Origin: Burkholderia ubonensis
GTDB lineage: Bacteria; Pseudomonadota; Gammaproteobacteria; Burkholderiales; Burkholderiaceae
Direction: 5' to 3'
Assembly (NCBI RefSeq): GCF_902833085.1
Contig: NZ_CADFEB010000004.1
Coordinates: 558,001 to 622,000 of the forward strand
Length of the DNA: 64,000 nucleotides
Shown here: positions 426 to 9,619 of the stretch, one piece after another
How the letters are laid out: each line of letters opens with the position of its first letter
How positions within the stretch are numbered: the stretch's first letter is position 1
The notes under the pieces: model-generated
Seen by the model: only the letters and a program-made list of their open reading frames with translations
Told to the model about the DNA's origin: nothing
The model's database searches: none
Made by a program: the position numbers and the translations under genes

Positions 426-1547
426 TCAGATGATGAATTCCATCGACTTCGTGCCGCATTGCGCGTCCGGCAACGGTTCGCCGCGCTGCGCGGCCGCCAG
501 CAACCGGCCGATCGCAACGTGGACCACGTCGGCGCGCACGCTCGATGGCGTGAAGCCGGCCGCGTTGTCGAGCCCCTCACGGTGCGCGCGCATGATCCGC
601 ACATCCTGCTGGATCACCGAATGCGTGTAGAGGTGCAGCAGCGGTTTCAGCGCACGCAGCAAGGCGACCGGCAACGCGAAACGATACGCAATGTACGTGT
701 AGACGCGCGAGCGGCGTGCATCGAGCGGCGTGATCTGACTGATGATCAGGAAGCTCGAGCGGCCGCCCCAGTGATAGTCGCAACGCGTGACGTTCGGTGC
801 AAGGAAATGGTCGGTATGCCGGAGCGGTTCCTTTCCCGGATTGGTCAGCCAGTCGAGCATGCCGATCTTGTCGCCGTCGTCGTGATAAGTTACCTCGACG
901 CTCTGCCGCTTGAGCGCCACGGTCGCCCGTAGCCGTCGCCCGCTCGCCGAACGGAAGATCCGGTCGTGCACGAATACCGTATGCGGAACGTCCATGAAAT
1001 TCTCGACCAGCGCGCCGAGATCGCCGTCGAACGTATTGACCATGTAGTACGACTGCCACGGCCGCTCGCCATAGTGGGGCATGTCGAACGGCTGCTTCAG
1101 GGCCGGGTCGCCTCGTCCGCGGTAGACCCAGACGAGCCCGTGCCGCGTCAGCACCGGCAGCGTGCGCTGGCGATACGGATAGGCGGCGTCCGTCGGTGGC
1201 CCGCTTGCGCCGTCGATGCTCGGAATCCGCGTAACGCTGCCGTGCCGGTCGTAATGCCAGCCGTGATACGGGCACACGAGGCAGTCGTCGGCGATCCGTC
1301 CTGCCGACAGCCTGGTGCCGCGATGCACGCATTGATCGACGAGCGCGACGATCTCGCCGTCTGATGCCCGGAACAGCACGATGCCAAGGCCGAGCAAGCG
1401 TGTGCCCAATGGCTTGTCTCGCTTCACCTCTGCTTCGGTGCACGCGACATACCAATGCTCGGCCAGCGCGCCGAATGCTTCGGCCTCGGCGTCGGGCGCC
1501 GACCCGCGGCAAGGATCGCGTGTCGTTGCGATGGATACGTTCAGCAT
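426..1547 (-). CDS. Rieske non-heme iron oxygenase
   Basis: A 373-residue single-component Rieske oxygenase. The [2Fe-2S] Rieske site is C73-x-H75 and C92-x2-H95 (the latter in CPYHGW). The mononuclear iron site is N183-x2-D186-x2-H189-x4-H194 (NFMDVPHTVFVH). Such proteins hydroxylate, desaturate or demethylate small hydrophobic substrates using electrons from a reductase, which is not encoded nearby. The ATG lies inside the last codons of the GH3 gene (7-base overlap, ATGCTGA), so the two are translationally coupled, and both follow the desaturase gene. The context suggests oxidation of a fatty acyl or amide intermediate. The substrate is unknown. Confidence 0.85.
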   Translation of the reverse strand: MLNVSIATTRDPCRGSAPDAEAEAFGALAEHWYVACTEAEVKRDKPLGTRLLGLGIVLFRASDGEIVALVDQCVHRGTRLSAGRIADDCLVCPYHGWHYDRHGSVTRIPSIDGASGPPTDAAYPYRQRTLPVLTRHGLVWVYRGRGDPALKQPFDMPHYGERPWQSYYMVNTFDGDLGALVENFMDVPHTVFVHDRIFRSASGRRLRATVALKRQSVEVTYHDDGDKIGMLDWLTNPGKEPLRHTDHFLAPNVTRCDYHWGGRSSFLIISQITPLDARRSRVYTYIAYRFALPVALLRALKPLLHLYTHSVIQQDVRIMRAHREGLDNAAGFTPSSVRADVVHVAIGRLLAAAQRGEPLPDAQCGTKSMEFII

Positions 1548-3121
1548 GACCACTCGTCCTCGATGAATGCGCGCAGCGCGTCCGCGACCGCGACCCGGCC
1601 GATCAGCGCGCGCGGCTTGACGTCGCCGGCCCGGATGCCCGCATGCTCGTGCGCGCGCTGAACCAGATCGGCCAGATGCGCGGCGCCGCCCGGTACGCGT
1701 GCCGCGCGCAGAGGGCCGAGTTGCCCCAGCGCGCGCGCGTGCCGGTAGTGAAACGCGCGTGCGAGGGCCTGTTCGAGCGCATCGCGCACGCCGGCGACGT
1801 CTCGCGCATCGCTTGCGAGCACCAGCATGTAATGTGGCGGATCGGTATCCGCGCACGGAATCACGCACCCCTCGTCGCCGGGCCGCAGCGCCTCCGAGAG
1901 GGAAGCGGCCAGACAGGCTTCGTCCAGCTTTTCGCCGACGAGATCGCTCTGCGCGCCGGTCCGCCCGACGAATACGACGCGTGGCGTCCGCCCCGCATAT
2001 CCCGTCACGCGCACCCGGTCGCCGAGCCGGTAGCGATACAGGCCGCCTCCCGTCGTCACGATCACCTCGGCGGTGTCGCCCGGCTTCAATCCCTCGACGC
2101 CCACGACGGAACCGTCGTCGAGCAGGAACTCCAGATAGTGGCTGCGGATCGCGAGCGGGCAGCCGGCATCGTTGCCGAACGGCAGGCTGACCACCGCCTC
2201 GGTCGAGAACAAGCCTTTCGGGAGCCACGCGGCCTGCGGGAACAAGGTGCGCGCATGCGCTGCATAGCGCCCGCTCGGGCCATCCATCCAGCAACTCAGC
2301 GCGGCGAGCCGCGGCCACAGCGGGCCGCAGTTGCCGTCGTCGAGCGCGCGCCGCAGCGCTGCCGCGCGCGCCGACGGCAGTGCGTCGAACAGGAACGCGA
2401 GCGTGTCGCTGCGCCGCGGTTCGGTTTCGTCGAACAGTGGACGAAGCAGGCTGGTCAGGAAGGTCGGACTCCATACGCTGATGAACGCGAGATCGTCGGC
2501 GGCGATCAGCGCGCGCAGGGTCTCGTTGCGCCATGCATCACGGTCGCCCGACAGCGATGGCGCGACGAGCGTCGGCAGCAGGCCGACGAGCGGACTGCCC
2601 GCCAGGTAATCGAGATCGCTCTCCGAGCCGATCATGATGCCGTTGGCGGCACGCTCGCGCGGCTGCATCGGCGGCGACATCGACCAGTACGCGCGTCCGG
2701 CGGCGACGCCCGGCACCTCGCGGTACAGATCGGCGAGCCAGACGACCAGCGCGGACTGCAGCTCGTCGAGAAACGCGGGCGTGTATGGAATCAGCTTCTG
2801 CCGTTCGCTGCTGCCGCTCGTGCGTTCGAAGAAGCGCGGCGGCTGGGCGGTCAGGATCGGGCCGGATTCGCGGAGCGCACGATCGATCCACGGACGCATG
2901 CCGGCATACGTCGTCGCGGGCACGCGTTCGCGAAACTGCGCCGGGTCCGCGATGTCGGCGAATCCGTTCGCGACGCCGAGCGCCGTGTTCCGGTTCGCGG
3001 CAAGCAGGCGCGCGAGATAGGCCGCCTGCGTGTCGGCCGGTGCGTCGAGCGCGGCCAGCCACGCGTCGCGGAACGGCTCGGCGGAAGTGGCGAAGGCGGC
3101 CCACGCATCCTGTGCACGCAC
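1541..3121 (-). CDS. GH3-family acyl-acid amido synthetase
   Basis: A 526-residue member of the GH3 branch of adenylate-forming enzymes, which activate a carboxylic acid with ATP and join it to an amine or amino acid. The phosphate-binding motif is visible at residues 99-114 (ERTSGSSERQKLIPYT). The conserved YRY-x2-GD-x-V segment occurs at roughly residue 360-375. The length is typical of bacterial GH3 proteins. It sits 13 bases after the desaturase gene and overlaps the Rieske gene, forming one minus-strand operon. Family knowledge plus context suggests formation of an amide from a desaturated or oxidised fatty acid. I recall GH3-like and desaturase genes in the Burkholderia afc antifungal locus, which deserves comparison. 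Confidence 0.85.
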   Translation of the reverse strand: MRAQDAWAAFATSAEPFRDAWLAALDAPADTQAAYLARLLAANRNTALGVANGFADIADPAQFRERVPATTYAGMRPWIDRALRESGPILTAQPPRFFERTSGSSERQKLIPYTPAFLDELQSALVVWLADLYREVPGVAAGRAYWSMSPPMQPRERAANGIMIGSESDLDYLAGSPLVGLLPTLVAPSLSGDRDAWRNETLRALIAADDLAFISVWSPTFLTSLLRPLFDETEPRRSDTLAFLFDALPSARAAALRRALDDGNCGPLWPRLAALSCWMDGPSGRYAAHARTLFPQAAWLPKGLFSTEAVVSLPFGNDAGCPLAIRSHYLEFLLDDGSVVGVEGLKPGDTAEVIVTTGGGLYRYRLGDRVRVTGYAGRTPRVVFVGRTGAQSDLVGEKLDEACLAASLSEALRPGDEGCVIPCADTDPPHYMLVLASDARDVAGVRDALEQALARAFHYRHARALGQLGPLRAARVPGGAAHLADLVQRAHEHAGIRAGDVKPRALIGRVAVADALRAFIEDEWSC

Positions 3122-3134
3122 GTGCGTCCCCCTG

Positions 3135-4070
3135 TCAGAAATAGGTCTTGTCGAGCTGCGTCAGATCGCTCGGCAAGCGGCGCGGCGGCTCGAACACATG
3201 CAGCCAGCCGTACCACAGCGGCCGCGTTTCGCCCGGATCGGAACGCGCATGCAGTTCCTGCCAGCGCAGGCTCGGATGCCGGTGATGCGTGAGGTTGTAG
3301 TTGAAGTTGAGGAATGCCCAGCGAACCAGCGTGGGCGCACGCATGTTGTAGGTGCCTTCGACCACGTCGAGCGGGGTATGCATGTGATAGACCCACTGCA
3401 GCGACGACCATGAAAACGCGAATGCGAGATAGGCAATCGCGATGTCGAGCGACCTCCAGTCCAGCAGGATGCCGAGCGCGGCCCACGTGGCCGCGCCCGC
3501 GATGACTTCGTAACGGATTCGCCGGAACCCGGCCGTATCGAAGTCCCGGAACGCAGCCGCATACGTGTTGTCGCGCCCGTACTTCGCCCAGCCGGACGGG
3601 ATGCGGATGGGGAGCACGGCCAGGACGACGCTGCCGACGAGGCTCGCGAACCAGATGCCGCCGACGATCGCCGCGTAGTATTCGATTCGCTTGCGCCACA
3701 GCGACGCGTCCGGATCGACGAAATCCACCCGCTCCGCAAGCGTCCGGTTGCGTACGTGGTGACCGAGATGATTCACGTGGATGAGCGTTGCCGCCGCGCC
3801 GAACATCGTCGACGCCCACCACATCATCAGGTAGTTGATCGTCCCGCGCCGATGGCCGAAACCGTGGAACGTCTCGTGCATCATCGAGAACACACCCTGC
3901 ATGATCAGGCAGAACGGCGCGAGCGCCAGCCATCTGAGCGGGCTGCTGCCGTGGGACAGCCACGTCAGGATGCCGGCCCATGCAACGCTCTGCAATGCGA
4001 GCACGCACAGATTCAGCCGGTCGAAACGCGGCGAACGATTATCTGTGGCGCAGGCATCGGCAACGAACAT
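3135..4070 (-). CDS. fatty acid desaturase family protein
   Basis: A 311-residue membrane desaturase with three histidine clusters: HETFH at 65-69, HxxHxxHH at 98-105, and THHRH at about 261-265. Hydrophobic stretches surround the first and second clusters. These histidines bind the diiron centre that inserts double bonds (or hydroxylates) acyl chains in the membrane. The ATG at 4070 was chosen because further upstream extension would run into the divergent gene's start region. It is first in the operon desaturase-GH3-Rieske. Chain length and position specificity cannot be read from sequence. Confidence 0.85.
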   Translation of the reverse strand: MFVADACATDNRSPRFDRLNLCVLALQSVAWAGILTWLSHGSSPLRWLALAPFCLIMQGVFSMMHETFHGFGHRRGTINYLMMWWASTMFGAAATLIHVNHLGHHVRNRTLAERVDFVDPDASLWRKRIEYYAAIVGGIWFASLVGSVVLAVLPIRIPSGWAKYGRDNTYAAAFRDFDTAGFRRIRYEVIAGAATWAALGILLDWRSLDIAIAYLAFAFSWSSLQWVYHMHTPLDVVEGTYNMRAPTLVRWAFLNFNYNLTHHRHPSLRWQELHARSDPGETRPLWYGWLHVFEPPRRLPSDLTQLDKTYF

Positions 4071-4181
4071 ACAATTCGGACATGGATGGTGGCAGCGACG
4101 CAGAGCATACCTTCGATCGCCGTCATCGAACAATACGCGCGCCGGCTGCCGCACGCGTCAATGCCACGACCACTCCAGACC

Positions 4182-5069
4182 ATGTCCACCGGACGGCCCG
4201 ACGACGCAATGCACGCGCCCCGCGATGACGAGGCCGACATCCGTCGGCGCGATCCGCACTTCCGCTTTGCGGACGACATTCCGCGCTACTGGTATCGCGG
4301 CCAAAGTCGCGTGACGCGCTTCTTCGACGCGTTCTCGATCATGTTTCCGCTCGGCGAGAAGTTTTTCGTCGACAGCGTCAGGCAGTACCGCGATGCGTTG
4401 CCGGCCGACGGCATGCTCGCCGCCCAGGTGGATGCGTTCCTGCATCAGGAGGCAACGCATATCCGCGAACACCGCGCGTACAACCGACGCCTCGCTCGTC
4501 AAGGCATGCCCGTCGACGCGCTCGAAGCGATCATGCAGCGACGGCAGCAACAATGCCGACGCGTCGCATCGCCGCTGCTGCGCCTGACATTCACCGCGTG
4601 TCTCGAGCATTACACGGCCATTCTCGCCGATCTGCTGTTGCGCGATCCGGCTATCCTCGACGGCGCCGACCCGTCGATGGCCGCGATCTGGCGGTGGCAT
4701 GCGGTCGAGGAAACCGAACACAAGACGGTTGCTTTCGATGTGTTTCGCGCGTGCGGCGGCGGGGCCGTCAAGCGCTACGTCATGCGGACTGCGGCGATGC
4801 TCGGCGTCACCGCGTGTTTCGTCGTCGATCTGGGGTATTTCGTCACCCTTCTCGCCGTCGCCGATCGCGACGCCCGTAACTGGCGGAGCTGGGCGCGGCT
4901 GGGCTGGTGGCTGTTCGGCGCGCCGGGCGTGTTCACCCGCGTGCTGCCCGCGTGGCTGGCGTGGTTTTCGCCGCGCTTTCACCCCGGCCGGATCGGCAAC
5001 CCGGCAACGCTTGCCGCGGCCCGCGCAGCGCTCGCTGCCGCCGATGCCGCAGCGACGGAGTCCGTATGA
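4182..5069 (+). CDS. metal-dependent hydrolase / diiron ferritin-like family protein
   Basis: A 295-residue protein resembling the family annotated as predicted metal-dependent hydrolase (PF10118 type). Likely metal ligands form a carboxylate/histidine pattern: E59, E90-x2-H93, a central EH pair (CLEHY) and a later ExxExxH-like segment (VEETEH). This is reminiscent of ferritin-like diiron enzymes. The start is uncertain: ATG codons at 4161, 4182 and 4209 are all in frame with no strong ribosome site. It is divergent from the desaturase operon and overlaps the next gene by 4 bases (ATGA). Diiron proteins of this type are found near lipid-modifying genes; its reaction here is unknown. Confidence 0.7.
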   Translation: MSTGRPDDAMHAPRDDEADIRRRDPHFRFADDIPRYWYRGQSRVTRFFDAFSIMFPLGEKFFVDSVRQYRDALPADGMLAAQVDAFLHQEATHIREHRAYNRRLARQGMPVDALEAIMQRRQQQCRRVASPLLRLTFTACLEHYTAILADLLLRDPAILDGADPSMAAIWRWHAVEETEHKTVAFDVFRACGGGAVKRYVMRTAAMLGVTACFVVDLGYFVTLLAVADRDARNWRSWARLGWWLFGAPGVFTRVLPAWLAWFSPRFHPGRIGNPATLAAARAALAAADAAATESV

Positions 5070-5986
5070 TTGCGTCGCATCCGGCCTGGTTGCCGTACGG
5101 CTTCGACGACTGGCGGCGACACTACCCGTCGACGCCGTTCGAACGCGCGCCCGCGGCACTCGACTGGACGGCGCGCTTCATCGACTGCTGGCACGCGTCC
5201 GGCGCCGCGGCGCGCGCGAACACCATCATCGTGCTGATTGCCGGACTTTATTCCGAGTGGATTCCGGCGTGCTTCCGGCATGCGGCGCGCGCGCTGCATG
5301 CCGCGCGGCATCCGGTCCTGCGCGTGCCGGTCCGCTCGTCGCGCGGCGTCGTCGAGCAGGGGCGGCATATCGTGCGTGCGCTCCGTGCACGCATGCCGGC
5401 CGGCAGTCGCTTCATCGTCCTCGCCCACAGCAAGGGCGGGCTCGATGCGTTGGCGGCGCTGCATGCCGATTCCGGGCTGCGTGCCCGCTGCGACGGCATC
5501 GCGCTCGTTCAGCCGCCAGTCGGCCCGAGCGCGATCGTCGACGGTCTGCTCGATCGACGCGGCGCGCGCATCGATCCCGCATGGTTGCGCTGGACGGCGG
5601 GCAAGCTGTTGCGCACGCGCTGGCTGCATGCCGGCTCGCGCGACATCGGCAGCGGCCGTGATTCCGGCATCGCGAACCTGTTGTCCGCGCTGCCCGACGA
5701 TTTGCACTGCGTGCATGTCGTGAGCTGGTCGGTAGAGCGCCAGTCCCGCTTCGATGCGCATCACCCGCGCCTCGATCGCTATCGCCCCGGATGTGCGCAC
5801 GACGGACAGTTCTATCTTGACCACCAGACGATTCGCGGCATGCCGCAAGTGTGCGTGCCGCATCTCGACCATGGCCAGCCGGTACTCGGTGGCGCGGGCT
5901 TCGACGCGGGGCGCTTCTGGCTTGCGCTAGTCGCGCTCCTTGATGCGACACGGCCGGCCACGGCCGCCGGCGCTCAGACCAGGTAA
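5066..5986 (+). CDS. alpha/beta-hydrolase-like protein
   Basis: A 306-residue protein with a hydrolase-like core. A hydrophobic strand leads to AHSKGG at residues 120-125, a nucleophile-elbow-like turn with S122, and a C-terminal HLDHG segment can supply the histidine. No signal peptide is evident. Its ATG overlaps the preceding stop codon (ATGA), so it is coupled to the diiron-type gene. Its end overlaps the tail of the convergent acyltransferase-like gene by 13 bases. A thioesterase or lipase-like role in the lipid cluster is plausible but inferred. Confidence 0.65.
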   Translation: MIASHPAWLPYGFDDWRRHYPSTPFERAPAALDWTARFIDCWHASGAAARANTIIVLIAGLYSEWIPACFRHAARALHAARHPVLRVPVRSSRGVVEQGRHIVRALRARMPAGSRFIVLAHSKGGLDALAALHADSGLRARCDGIALVQPPVGPSAIVDGLLDRRGARIDPAWLRWTAGKLLRTRWLHAGSRDIGSGRDSGIANLLSALPDDLHCVHVVSWSVERQSRFDAHHPRLDRYRPGCAHDGQFYLDHQTIRGMPQVCVPHLDHGQPVLGGAGFDAGRFWLALVALLDATRPATAAGAQTR

Positions 5987-7092
5987 ATCTCGAAGCCGGG
6001 CATCCGCTCGTCGTCGCTTAGGTCAAGCGCGGGCGTGCCCGGTGTGGACAGCGTGTACAGGTCCATCGGCAGCGCGGTATATCGATAGCCGCGCAGCGCG
6101 GACCAGAGCGGATCATGATCGTACAGGCACAGCTGGATCAGCGCGTAGCGGCTCCGCTCCCGTTGCCAGACCGCGTTCAGCAGCGCCTGCGCGATGTCCG
6201 GGTCGCGCCCGCTCACTTGCAGGTGAGTCAGATAGATGTCCCGCAGCGCGTGACCGGGTGCGGCGATCCGGGGGCGCCCAAGCAATGGCGCGACTGCGTT
6301 GAAGCCGTGGCGCAGTGCGCCGAGTTCCCACGGCAGTCGTTCCAGTACGATGCGCTTGATGCACCCCGCATCCCACGGCGCGACGCAGCCCACGATGCGA
6401 CGGTTCGCGTTGCGCGCCACCAGGAAGGACTCGATCCCGAAGTCCGGCCAGACGCTCAGGCGCCGCTCGAATTCGGCCCGGGTAAAGACGCAGCCGAAGG
6501 GTTGGGAACGCGATTCGCGGTCCAGGAACTCGCGCAGCGCTTCGGTATCGTCCGCTGACGCGTTCGTTACCGTGACAGGGCGGGTGCGTCGGGCGGTCAT
6601 GCGCCGCGCGTAGATCGACACGTTGCTGTAGCCGCGCCAATGCCGGAACCCGAGCCGGGCCGGCTTGCCCGCGCCGAACAGCGATTGCATCGCCATCCGG
6701 TTGTCGCGGATGACGCAGCAATACGCATGATGGACGCCGTCATGCGCGGCCAGTTCTGCGAGGCGATCGCGTACATAGCCGGTCCATGTGCGCGTCAGAT
6801 GGCGATCGGGTGCGATGCGCAGGTCGCCAAGATAGGCGATACGCTGCGCGTTTCCGGCCAGGTAGCCATCGCGGACGACCAGGCTCGCCATTCCCTTGAG
6901 ATGGCCGGCGTCGTCTTCCGCGAGCCATGTTCGATAGTCATCCGAATGACAGCGGTGCAGCGCGAAATAATCCGGCGCGCGATCGAAGCGCAGCGGCATC
7001 CCGCCGCGCATCGCGTAGCGCGTTTGAAACGCGAGGAGCCGTTCGTTGTCGACCGCCGCTGCCGGCCGGATTCGCGTCATCCGCTCATTCAC
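5974..7092 (-). CDS. GNAT-like acyltransferase, unknown substrate
   Basis: A 372-residue soluble protein with weak N-acetyltransferase (GNAT) character. The N-terminal half has alternating strand and helix pattern and a segment (YLGDLRIAPDRHLTRTW) resembling the GNAT strand followed by the acyl-CoA loop. The C-terminal half has a second similar segment (IYLTHLQVSGRDPDIAQALL), suggesting a tandem GNAT fold. Its start overlaps the end of the related upstream gene by 8 bases, so the pair is co-translated. In this cluster a role in N-acylation is attractive but unproven. The family call is tentative. Confidence 0.55.
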   Translation of the reverse strand: MNERMTRIRPAAAVDNERLLAFQTRYAMRGGMPLRFDRAPDYFALHRCHSDDYRTWLAEDDAGHLKGMASLVVRDGYLAGNAQRIAYLGDLRIAPDRHLTRTWTGYVRDRLAELAAHDGVHHAYCCVIRDNRMAMQSLFGAGKPARLGFRHWRGYSNVSIYARRMTARRTRPVTVTNASADDTEALREFLDRESRSQPFGCVFTRAEFERRLSVWPDFGIESFLVARNANRRIVGCVAPWDAGCIKRIVLERLPWELGALRHGFNAVAPLLGRPRIAAPGHALRDIYLTHLQVSGRDPDIAQALLNAVWQRERSRYALIQLCLYDHDPLWSALRGYRYTALPMDLYTLSTPGTPALDLSDDERMPGFEIYLV

Positions 7093-7810
7093 CGGCGAAG
7101 ATCCGTCGCGCCATCGGCTTGAGGTTTTCCGGCGTCAGTTCGCACAGGCAGACGAGCTCGTCGCCGCGCGCATAGTGAGGATTGCGTTCGAGGAAGTAGG
7201 TGACGTCCGGCAGTCGCCGATGCGCGTCCGGCACGCCGGCGAGGATGGGGGCGAGGCGGCCTTGCGGCACCGGGAAGTTGAGCACGCCCGACGCGGAGTC
7301 GTACACGCGCCCGAAGCGCTCGACGGCAAGGTGATCGAGCAGCGCCTGGGTCGCTGGCGCGGTCGGCCGGTCGAAGCGTGGTGCGAAGTCATGCGCGAAT
7401 GCCCGCAGGTAGCGGTACGTGCGATGCCCCTTGCAAATGAGAAACCAGTAGAGCGCGACGTCGGGCGAGAGCCGCTTGAGTTCGCCGGCGAGCCGGATCC
7501 AGCTGAACGCGAGCTGCTGGCTGCCCCAGCAGGCGGGATCCACGATCGTATCGCCGGAAAACAGGACGCGCAGCGCCGAGTCGTTCCACTGCTGGTCGTA
7601 AAGCTTCAGCGTGGAAAAACCGCGCATCTGCCCCGTGTCGTCGCGCATGACGATGCAATGTGTCTTGTCGTCGAGGTCGTGTTCGAAGCGCTCGAATTGC
7701 GTGTCTCGGTAGCAGGACGAATAGAGCGCATACATCTGTGCAATGTCGACGTCGCGCAGCTGCGCACGCGTCATGGAACTGGCTTGAAGCGGCATGGCGT
7801 CGTTATTCAT
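7085..7810 (-). CDS. GNAT-like acyltransferase (N-acyl amino acid synthase type), tentative
   Basis: A 241-residue soluble protein. The N-terminal part (MYALYSSCYRDTQFERFEHDLDDK region, then IVMRDDTGQMRGFSTLKL) resembles acyltransferases in which a short helix precedes a charged loop and a central strand. I could not name a firm family. It lies directly upstream of, and overlaps by 8 bases, the 372-residue GNAT-like gene. It starts opposite the plus-strand PAP2-desaturase gene, so a divergent promoter must lie around 7811-7862. Likely partner of the next gene in the lipid cluster. Confidence 0.5.
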   Translation of the reverse strand: MNNDAMPLQASSMTRAQLRDVDIAQMYALYSSCYRDTQFERFEHDLDDKTHCIVMRDDTGQMRGFSTLKLYDQQWNDSALRVLFSGDTIVDPACWGSQQLAFSWIRLAGELKRLSPDVALYWFLICKGHRTYRYLRAFAHDFAPRFDRPTAPATQALLDHLAVERFGRVYDSASGVLNFPVPQGRLAPILAGVPDAHRRLPDVTYFLERNPHYARGDELVCLCELTPENLKPMARRIFAGE

Positions 7811-7862
7811 GCGAGCTGAAACGATTTATCATCATACTCGATCGAGCCGCTCCCTTTTTCTC

Positions 7863-9347
7863 ATGCGCGCCACGCCTCCTTTTCCCGCCTCTTCCGCACC
7901 GCCTGCCCCCAACGCGTGGCGCTGGCTTGCAATCTACGTCGCCGTGTCGGGCGCACTCTACTTCTGGGTCACGCATGCGCCGCTGGCGCCCGTGCACCTG
8001 TTGCGTCCCGGGCCCTACGACGCGTTCGTTCCGCGCGTGCCCGCCAGCGTGCCGCTGTATCTGAGTTACGCGCTCGTCATGCCGTCGATCGTCTGGTTCG
8101 GCCGGCGCTGCGATTGGCTGCTGCCTGCGTTTTTCGCAGGTGCGCTTGCCGCTGGCCTCTGCCTCGTCAGCCACGTGTTCTGGCCGACTGCCGTGATCCG
8201 GCCGCCTGTCGCGACCGGATGGCTCGCATGGCTGTACCGGATCGATACGCCGCTCGCCGCGAGTCCGAGCGGCCATGTCGCGCTGCCCGTCGCGGTCGCG
8301 GTGGCGCTGGCCGCGCTGCGTGCCCGGGCTGCGCGCTACTACGCTGCGTGGAGTGCGGTGCTGGCGCTCACGGTCCTGACGACCGGCCAGCATCTGCTTG
8401 GAGACATGCTGGTGGGCGTCGCGCTTGGCATTGGCGTGGGCAGTGCGACGGCCGTGCTCGTCCGTCTCGACGTCGACCTGCGTACGGTCGGTGCATTGCT
8501 GCTCGAATGGCTCTGCATCATCGTCATGCTGCGGATCGCGCTCGAGGCAGGCCATTGGGCGGTCTACCTGCTGGCGGCCGTCGTTGTCGCCACGCGGCAG
8601 CACGCGTTGTTCATCCTGTATCACGATGCGACGCACTACCACTTGAGCCGCCGCCGTTTCGCGAACGACTATCTGATCAACGTCGCGATCGGCGTGCCGG
8701 GACTCGTGCCCATCGAGTTTTACCGCCCGCTGCATCTCGCGCACCATCGGCACGTCGGTACTTCACAGGACCCCGAACGGAATTTTCTGTATCACGCGCA
8801 GCCGTGGAAATTCGAGCCGCTCGATGCGTTGCCGCTCATCCGGCAATTGCTTGGCGATCTGCTCGTGGTCAACATGGTGAAGAACATGCGTGCGTACCGA
8901 CGCGCGAACGGACGCGGCGCGTCCATCACGCTGCCGCTGCTTGCGGCAGTCGCGACATGGGGCGTCCTGCTCGCTCCGCTCGTGCATGCGTGCACGGTTC
9001 GCGATCTGCTGACGCTCGTGGCGCTCTGGTTCGCGCCGCTCGTCACGATCGGCGCGCTGCTGCAGAAAATCCGCAGCATCGCCGAACACAGCGGTGGACC
9101 GGGCATCACGCCCGGCTGGCACGATTGGACCTATTCGTGGCGCGTCGGGCTGCTGGGACGCTTCTTCATCTGGCCATACAACATCAACTATCACCAGCAG
9201 CATCATCGTGAGCCCAACGTGGCGTGGCATCGCCTGCCCGAACTGCGTGCATCCGGCGAGCCGGTTCTATCGTCGCGGCAGTTGCCTGCGCTGCTCTGGT
9301 CCGGTGCGTCCGACCCAGGCGGGCAAGGATGGAAGAGGGGGCGTTAG
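7863..9347 (+). CDS. PAP2-type phosphatase fused to fatty acid desaturase
   Basis: A 494-residue polytopic membrane protein with two recognisable halves in one uninterrupted frame. Residues about 20-205 look like a PAP2/inositol-phosphotransferase-type domain: RP at 113-114, PSGH at 135-138 and H177-x3-D181, all next to membrane segments. Residues about 230-480 are a desaturase: HDATH at 254-258, HLAHHRH at 291-297 and a late YHQQHH cluster. PAP2 enzymes dephosphorylate or transfer lipid phosphates; desaturases oxidise acyl chains. The K of the classical PAP2 K-x6-RP motif is absent (F106). The ATG at 7863 was preferred; in-frame starts at 7794 and 7809 overlap the divergent gene. The fusion suggests one enzyme acting on a phospholipid-like substrate. 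Confidence 0.75.
   Translation: MRATPPFPASSAPPAPNAWRWLAIYVAVSGALYFWVTHAPLAPVHLLRPGPYDAFVPRVPASVPLYLSYALVMPSIVWFGRRCDWLLPAFFAGALAAGLCLVSHVFWPTAVIRPPVATGWLAWLYRIDTPLAASPSGHVALPVAVAVALAALRARAARYYAAWSAVLALTVLTTGQHLLGDMLVGVALGIGVGSATAVLVRLDVDLRTVGALLLEWLCIIVMLRIALEAGHWAVYLLAAVVVATRQHALFILYHDATHYHLSRRRFANDYLINVAIGVPGLVPIEFYRPLHLAHHRHVGTSQDPERNFLYHAQPWKFEPLDALPLIRQLLGDLLVVNMVKNMRAYRRANGRGASITLPLLAAVATWGVLLAPLVHACTVRDLLTLVALWFAPLVTIGALLQKIRSIAEHSGGPGITPGWHDWTYSWRVGLLGRFFIWPYNINYHQQHHREPNVAWHRLPELRASGEPVLSSRQLPALLWSGASDPGGQGWKRGR

Positions 9348-9542: not shown

Positions 9543-9619
<77 letters not shown>

Follow-up and report, generated by a model that had tools for sequence, protein, structure and literature searches.

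An eight-gene cluster of Burkholderia ubonensis with a GH3 and two-GNAT core, a candidate for oxidised acyl-amide synthesis

Introduction

The nearest described pathway to the system discussed here is the GH3-dependent synthesis of ornithine lipids by OlsH and OlsI in Singulisphaera acidiphila (PMC12493201). Our subject is a compact cluster of eight genes at positions 426-9347 of a 64,000-nucleotide stretch of the genome of Burkholderia ubonensis (contig NZ_CADFEB010000004.1, positions 558,001 to 622,000 of the forward strand, hereafter the window). The two systems are alike in that OlsH, a bacterial GH3 enzyme, forms an amide without coenzyme A (CoA) or acyl carrier protein (ACP), and in that the OlsH operon includes an alpha/beta hydrolase; they differ in that the words desaturase and Rieske occur 0 times in the available text of PMC12493201, which names no GNAT pair.

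This likeness is the basis of a first alternative, namely that the product is a structural amino-lipid akin to ornithine lipids: GH3, acting like OlsH, would use a free fatty acid to N-acylate an amino acid, the alpha/beta hydrolase would take the part of OlsI in O-acylating it, and the oxygenases would decorate the acyl chains. In the available text, OlsH is indeed a GH3 enzyme paired with an alpha/beta hydrolase O-acyltransferase (PMC12493201), and the window cluster has both enzyme classes, together with desaturases and a PAP2-like domain, and no exporter gene. On the contrary, the GH3 protein of the window fails the OlsH model NCBIfam NF052613 (35.5 bits for a cut-off of 620, over residues 20-91 only). 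We consider an amino-lipid rather unlikely, also in view of the distribution and the gene partners described below.

The Rieske-containing clusters of cyanobacteria that code for CylC, a dimetal-carboxylate halogenase, are also comparable. Like the window cluster, and as far as the available text goes, they have no known product and no carrier protein, and they combine Rieske proteins, acyltransferases, desaturases and a ferritin-like diiron enzyme (PMC8406957). They are unlike it in that they contain two to four Rieske proteins and a CylC homologue, and GH3 is found 0 times in that text (PMC8406957); the window cluster, set beside them by description, has one Rieske protein and a protein of family PF10118. 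Two of the loci that we collected are cyanobacterial (L047 and L074).

An earlier note on this DNA had proposed a relative of the antifungal locus afc. The presence of desaturases and of an acid-activating enzyme, and the overlap of host genera, speak for kinship with afc or for a desaturase cluster of the polyyne type; against the latter, polyyne clusters require an ACP. The afc cluster, whose product is an antifungal lipopeptide, consists of 25 genes, including those of a fatty acyl-AMP ligase, an adenylation-domain (A-domain) enzyme, a carrier protein and KAS III-like enzymes, according to the study that solved AFC-BC11 (PMC12186527, available text). It shares with the window the host genus Burkholderia, and acid activation combined with desaturase-type oxidoreductases, whereas it is described as a non-classical nonribosomal peptide synthetase (NRPS) system with the carrier protein, A domain, fatty acyl-AMP ligase and KAS III-like enzymes just named (PMC12186527, PMC6301696, available text). 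GH3 and Rieske have 0 occurrences in the available text of PMC12186527. None of the eight window proteins has a Pfam match to an A domain or KAS, and the fatty acyl-AMP ligase, carrier protein and KAS III enzyme are likewise absent by Pfam. Kinship with afc is thus rejected on gene content, the comparison being made by gene list rather than by protein alignment, so that a distant kinship of single desaturases is possible; we give almost no weight to the afc or polyyne alternative as a whole.

We propose instead that the eight genes form a compact cluster, with no carrier protein of its own, whose likely product is an oxidised acyl-amide, either a small molecule or a lipid, and which is built around a GH3 and two-GNAT core that is shared across phyla. 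We put this proposal at an even chance.

The core and its distribution

GH3, a single-GNAT protein (GNAT2) and a tandem-GNAT protein (GNAT1) form a core which is common to many bacterial phyla and is mostly kept in distant loci. A scan of a genome collection with a GH3 alignment gave 468 confirmed relatives, and the counts of loci refer to the best 80 of these (L002-L081, of which L064 and L068 share one contig); the family profiles were built from these same loci, and matches were accepted at E 1e-8. In the distant set of 55 loci (L027-L081), whose GH3 proteins are 32-42% identical, GNAT2 lies within 1.5 kb of GH3 and on the same strand in 50 loci, and GNAT1 lies within 10 kb of GH3 in 51. 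According to the labels of the GH3 tree, the carriers come from 13 phyla: Pseudomonadota, Planctomycetota, Acidobacteriota, Chloroflexota, Bacillota, Gemmatimonadota, Myxococcota, Cyanobacteriota, Verrucomicrobiota, Armatimonadota, Bdellovibrionota, Thermodesulfobacteriota and Vulcanimicrobiota. The distant carriers are mostly contigs of metagenome-assembled genomes (MAGs), and single phylum placements may be wrong.

The association of GNAT2 with GH3 is also seen in a search that does not depend on GH3. GNAT2 was sought in 398 genomes sampled evenly from the phylum of the window (its own genome included), up to 6 first-look candidates being scored per genome. Matches were found in 7 genomes, 6 of them strong (own included), and all 6 strong cases have a GH3 gene nearby, within about 0.2 kb in five of them and three genes away in the window. 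GH3 itself is present in 12 of the 398 genomes (own included), six of which have no GNAT2 match. In a protein collection, a GNAT2 profile search scored 7998 candidates, at least 4978 of which proved to be relatives at E 1e-10. The 120 relatives listed have no precomputed Pfam domain, and nearly all of the named ones are called "hypothetical protein", two being also called "GNAT family N-acetyltransferase".

Regarding the close loci (25 loci, L002-L026, from Burkholderia, Paraburkholderia, Cupriavidus, Robbsia, Pseudomonas and two gammaproteobacterial MAGs), the arrangement of the window genes is recovered, with some genes absent, by tblastn of the eight window proteins. The locus nearest to the window is that of Burkholderia sp. 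SRS-46. All eight families occur together in 19 of the 25 loci: GNAT1, GNAT2, the Rieske protein, the hydrolase and the desaturase of the PAP2-fused type are found in each of the 25, the first desaturase in 24, the PAP2 half of the fusion in 23 (it is absent from L024 and L025) and PF10118 in 19. A second, free-standing desaturase gene lies past the Rieske gene or further out in 13 of the 25; the loci that have no PF10118 all have this gene, except L007, whose contig ends there. The earlier note treated the eight genes as one cluster, and this is borne out by their recurrence together in the 25 closest loci, which is more than chance. Within the genus of the window, GNAT2 is found in 15 of 65 genomes, as a single copy in each, so that the cluster is patchy, which argues against a structural lipid.

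Many of the close carriers are members of plant- or soil-associated genera, a point in favour of the idea that the cluster acts on a compound from outside, for instance a plant hormone or a phenolic acid, to modify or detoxify it: GH3 would conjugate this compound, the GNATs acetylate it and the oxygenases hydroxylate it. Plant GH3 enzymes do conjugate hormones (PMC12493201, available text). We nevertheless hold this second alternative to be improbable, since Clostridia, Anaerolineae and a Ruminococcus MAG also carry the core, together with radical-SAM enzymes, and so does a Citrobacter plasmid isolated from a gull cloaca; moreover, two GNATs and several radical-SAM enzymes would suit building rather than degrading.

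Redox enzymes around the core

The enzymes that would oxidise the acyl-amide are more variable than the core. The commonest additional family of the distant loci is a B12-binding radical-SAM protein, encoded within 6 kb of GH3 in 37 of 55 loci, the loci concerned carrying one to five copies in total; a Rieske gene lies within the same distance in 15 of 55. In the close loci, which all have the Rieske gene, the number with a radical-SAM gene within 6 kb of GH3 is 0 of 25. When 54 distant contigs are considered (L064, which shares its contig with L068, is omitted, and the score floor is 100 bits), 34 have a radical-SAM gene only, 11 a Rieske gene only, 3 both and 6 neither at 6 kb; the corresponding numbers at 10 kb are 32, 10, 6 and 6. 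The Fisher values are 3e-5 at 6 kb and 1e-3 at 10 kb, uncorrected for kinship. The distant relatives thus mostly have a B12-binding radical-SAM protein near the core, often with no Rieske protein, and the redox tailoring therefore appears exchangeable while the core is kept. There are 6 changes between Rieske and radical-SAM labels on the GH3 tree, a quick tree with long branches, and we draw no inference from this number. The labels of at least L029 (radical SAM and GNAT1 further out) and L074 (radical SAM on the opposite strand) follow the 6-kb rule on that tree.

One representative of the radical-SAM proteins matches Radical_SAM above and B12-binding below the Pfam cut-off. For the six that were scanned, the best NCBIfam models are of the HpnJ, BchE and PhpK types, all below cut-off, and a ladderane-type model is also listed. 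BchE and AcsF are a known case in which the same pathway step is performed by an iron oxygenase or by a B12 radical-SAM enzyme. The cluster resembles such pairs in the alternative between these two enzyme types, and in that the scanned proteins match BchE, HpnJ and related models below cut-off; it differs in that its genes are not those of chlorophyll or hopanoid synthesis, and in that the exchange here is not strict.

The other tailoring families recur, each in a minority of loci: within 10 kb in the 54 distant contigs, there is a desaturase in 15, family c9 (SnoaL/DUF4440-like) in 13, PAP2 in 9, a ferritin-like diiron protein in 7 and a hydrolase (ABH or family c21) in 5. The usual partner of the core GH3 is thus a GNAT rather than a hydrolase, contrary to what an OlsH/OlsI type of amino-lipid pathway would lead one to expect. 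Two genomes of one genus from the even sample (L095 and L099) have the order GNAT2-GH3-rSAM-rSAM-GNAT1-c9-desaturase-PAP2-Rieske-c21 (rSAM, radical SAM), with PAP2 on the opposite strand, so that seven of the eight window genes have counterparts there alongside radical-SAM genes (there is no PF10118, and one desaturase instead of two). In L043 (Gemmatimonadaceae), GNAT2, GH3, Rieske, a PAP2-desaturase fusion, a desaturase and GNAT1 follow one another consecutively. The Citrobacter portucalensis plasmid NZ_CP134684.1 (L082:13169-25264) carries GNAT2-GH3-rSAM-rSAM-GNAT1-rSAM-rSAM-PAP2-c9-rSAM-desaturase; at megablast sensitivity, the DNA of this cluster has no match in the E. coli collection and none in another plasmid.

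Last, the simplest loci consist of little more than the core beside an exporter. In Acinetobacter baumannii (L083, 8536-15900 of NZ_CP104448.1) the order is HlyD-MFS-GNAT2-GH3-OEP-GNAT1 (MFS, major facilitator superfamily), in L096 it is GNAT2-GH3-GNAT1-HlyD-MFS, and in L098 GNAT2-GH3-GNAT1 is followed on the same strand, about 2 kb past GNAT1, by an AcrB-type pump of the resistance-nodulation-division (RND) family. These three stretches have no Rieske match, and no radical-SAM match save one of 26 bits in L096. Such minimal cores next to MFS or RND exporter genes hint at secretion of the core product in those genomes, where the core alone would make a scaffold which is then exported; that some relatives adjoin exporters is a further point against a structural amino-lipid.

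Two side observations concern these replicons. The Citrobacter plasmid is typed as mobilizable and comes from a gull cloaca sample, and the A. baumannii record NZ_CP104448.1 is labelled a plasmid, yet has 4.09 Mb. It is also seen that two families, c17 (a long protein with NQR2/RnfD-like and FG-GAP/UnbV domains) and c14 (small, with no Pfam match), accompany the Rieske type in L040, L046, L047, L054, L072, L073 and L076, whose hosts are Gammaproteobacteria, a cyanobacterium and Myxococcota.

Proteins of the cluster

The earlier note described eight genes in alternating overlapping blocks, and all eight open reading frames are indeed found within 426-9347. The strand blocks are three genes on the minus strand, two on the plus strand, two minus and one plus, in the order Rieske, GH3, desaturase, PF10118, alpha/beta hydrolase, GNAT1, GNAT2 and PAP2-desaturase fusion. 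Three neighbour pairs overlap, judged from coordinates and translations: GH3/Rieske by 7 nt, PF10118/hydrolase by 4 nt and GNAT1/GNAT2 by 8 nt. The note's list of enzymes holds by Pfam for the Rieske oxygenase with its VanA_C domain, GH3, the two FA_desaturase proteins and PF10118; the PAP2 match is weak and the alpha/beta hydrolase is below cut-off. The "diiron-type hydrolase" of the note is the PF10118 protein, and its two "acyltransferase-like" proteins are real genes that have to be renamed GNAT-fold proteins, one single and one tandem.

Conservation of motifs was judged in alignments of 20-28 rows per protein. The Rieske [2Fe-2S] oxygenase (426..1547, minus strand) has a VanA-type C-terminal domain; its cluster ligands C74/H76/C93/H96 and iron ligands D187/H190/H195 (D-x2-H-x4-H; numbering of window:429-1550) are kept in 27 or 28 of 28 rows. 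The GH3-type acyl-acid amido synthetase (1541..3121, minus) matches the N-terminal and middle domains of the family, PF03321 with 114.8 bits and PF23571 with 53.2 (cut-off 23.6 in both cases), and its C-terminal PF23572 match, 21.4 bits, is below 23.6. Its motifs ERTSGSS, FSTE and GGLYRYRLGD are intact, the nucleotide-binding columns being conserved across 22 aligned proteins, and the amide-forming role that the earlier note gave it is thus probable. Profile comparison links it with plant amido synthetases whose structures are solved. It is the sole GH3 match in its 7.77-Mb genome, and has its nearest relative, 96% identical, in B. ubonensis. The first membrane oxygenase/desaturase of the FA_desaturase family (3135..4070, minus; start read from the tblastn alignment of relatives) has histidine boxes that are conserved in aligned relatives, as are those of the fusion protein.

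The PF10118 (Metal_hydrol) protein (4161..5069, plus), ferritin-like and diiron in type and annotated as "predicted metal-dependent hydrolase", keeps two ExxH motifs in 20 of 20 rows. Its profile probability against the AurF-like group of distant loci is 49%, and it has no relative of solved structure by sequence at E 1. The alpha/beta hydrolase-like protein (5066..5986, plus) has a conserved H-S-K-G elbow and matches family c21 of the distant clusters by profile (95% probability); its PF12146 score is 15.9 bits, under the cut-off of 27, and it has no NCBIfam match at E 0.01.

GNAT1 (5974..7092, minus) and GNAT2 (7085..7810, minus) both have confident GNAT folds, according to models and structure matches. 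GNAT1 scores 17.3 bits with PF00583, under the cut-off of 20.7, and at E 0.01 its 51 members are matched by PF00583 in 15 cases and by PF13527 in 5. Its double-GNAT architecture is common to N-myristoyltransferases and a mycobacterial tandem GNAT, the likeness to the N-myristoyltransferases being one of fold only. GNAT2, which marks the core, has no Pfam match of its own, and a Pfam GNAT model is matched by 3 of its 51 aligned members at E 0.1.

The last protein (7863..9347, plus) is a PAP2-like membrane domain fused to an FA_desaturase-family domain, with the GntB arginine hydroxylase as its best NCBIfam model, below cut-off. In the PAP2 part, P134, G136, H137, Q175, H176 and D180 are kept in at least 23 of 24 rows and S135 is not; this domain matches the PAP2_3 proteins of distant loci by profile (97%).

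On the side of the fusion gene, the cluster is adjoined by a tRNA-Met gene (window 9543-9619) whose 3' end points toward it. Integration of the cluster as a tRNA island is unsupported, as the 14-base 3' end of the tRNA has no copy in the 72 kb leftward or in the rest of the window. The Rieske end is adjoined by type VI secretion genes for VgrG, a Tle3 phospholipase effector and a Tla3 adapter (L091:5460-12064, on the same contig left of the window; L004:13048-19655); the Pfam names are those of the L004 copies, and L002 and the window genome have genes of identical or almost identical length and order.

Proposed function

In the simplest reading of the acyl-amide proposal, N-acylation by a GNAT would come first, then an ATP-driven amide bond made by GH3, then oxidation. 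One or both GNATs would transfer an acyl group from acyl-CoA or acyl-ACP onto an amine, giving an N-acyl amino acid or a similar compound; GH3 would activate a carboxyl group with ATP and join it to an amine; hydroxylation or desaturation of the product would fall to the Rieske oxygenase, both desaturase-family enzymes and the PF10118 diiron protein. At the membrane, a phosphate or acyl group may be taken off or transferred by the PAP2 domain and the alpha/beta hydrolase. We infer these substrates, the order of the steps, the product and its export from the families, motifs, folds, synteny and distribution observed above. The fatty amide or lipid suggested by the earlier note is a possible product.

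Several observations weigh against this proposal. GNAT folds do not show long-chain acyl transfer, and the GNATs may acetylate. The core is not universal: GNAT1 is absent within 10 kb in 4 of the 55 distant loci, and the exceptions to the core include contig-end loci (L045, L063) as well as L060 and L070, where the sequence read extends at least 10 kb to one side; L097 has GNAT2-GH3, and GNAT1 was not found in the 20 kb read; genome G326 has a weak GNAT2 match (E 7e-12) and no GH3. Rieske and radical-SAM genes are both present in 1, 3 and 6 of 54 contigs at 3, 6 and 10 kb, and they occur together in L095 and L099; a strict exchange is rejected, as the class with both rises with the permitted distance, and the exchange around the core is a tendency and no rule. 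The PAP2 match of the fusion protein, 25.4 bits, is below the Pfam cut-off of 27.2. None of the eight window genes codes for an exporter, and no characterised member of the cluster was found.

Conclusion

Among the matches listed, by title, abstract start or term counts, the open-licence literature holds no description of this GH3-GNAT cluster. It may be that GNAT1, GNAT2 and GH3 are the core of an unrecognised class of natural-product pathway, in which acyl-amides are assembled with neither carrier nor template in at least a dozen phyla and on at least one plasmid, decorated by O2-dependent iron enzymes or by O2-independent B12 radical-SAM enzymes, and exported; we put this wider claim slightly below an even chance. 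If it is true, a biosynthetic system present in many soil, gut and marine genomes is barely visible to domain-based annotation: the window cluster shows no polyketide synthase, NRPS or carrier protein, and a protein of the core lacks its own Pfam model. GNAT2 would then be a simple marker to find such clusters, and the three-gene core would make the chemistry directly testable. A swap of oxygenases for radical-SAM enzymes about a single core would offer a helpful example of the same pathway operating with and without oxygen.
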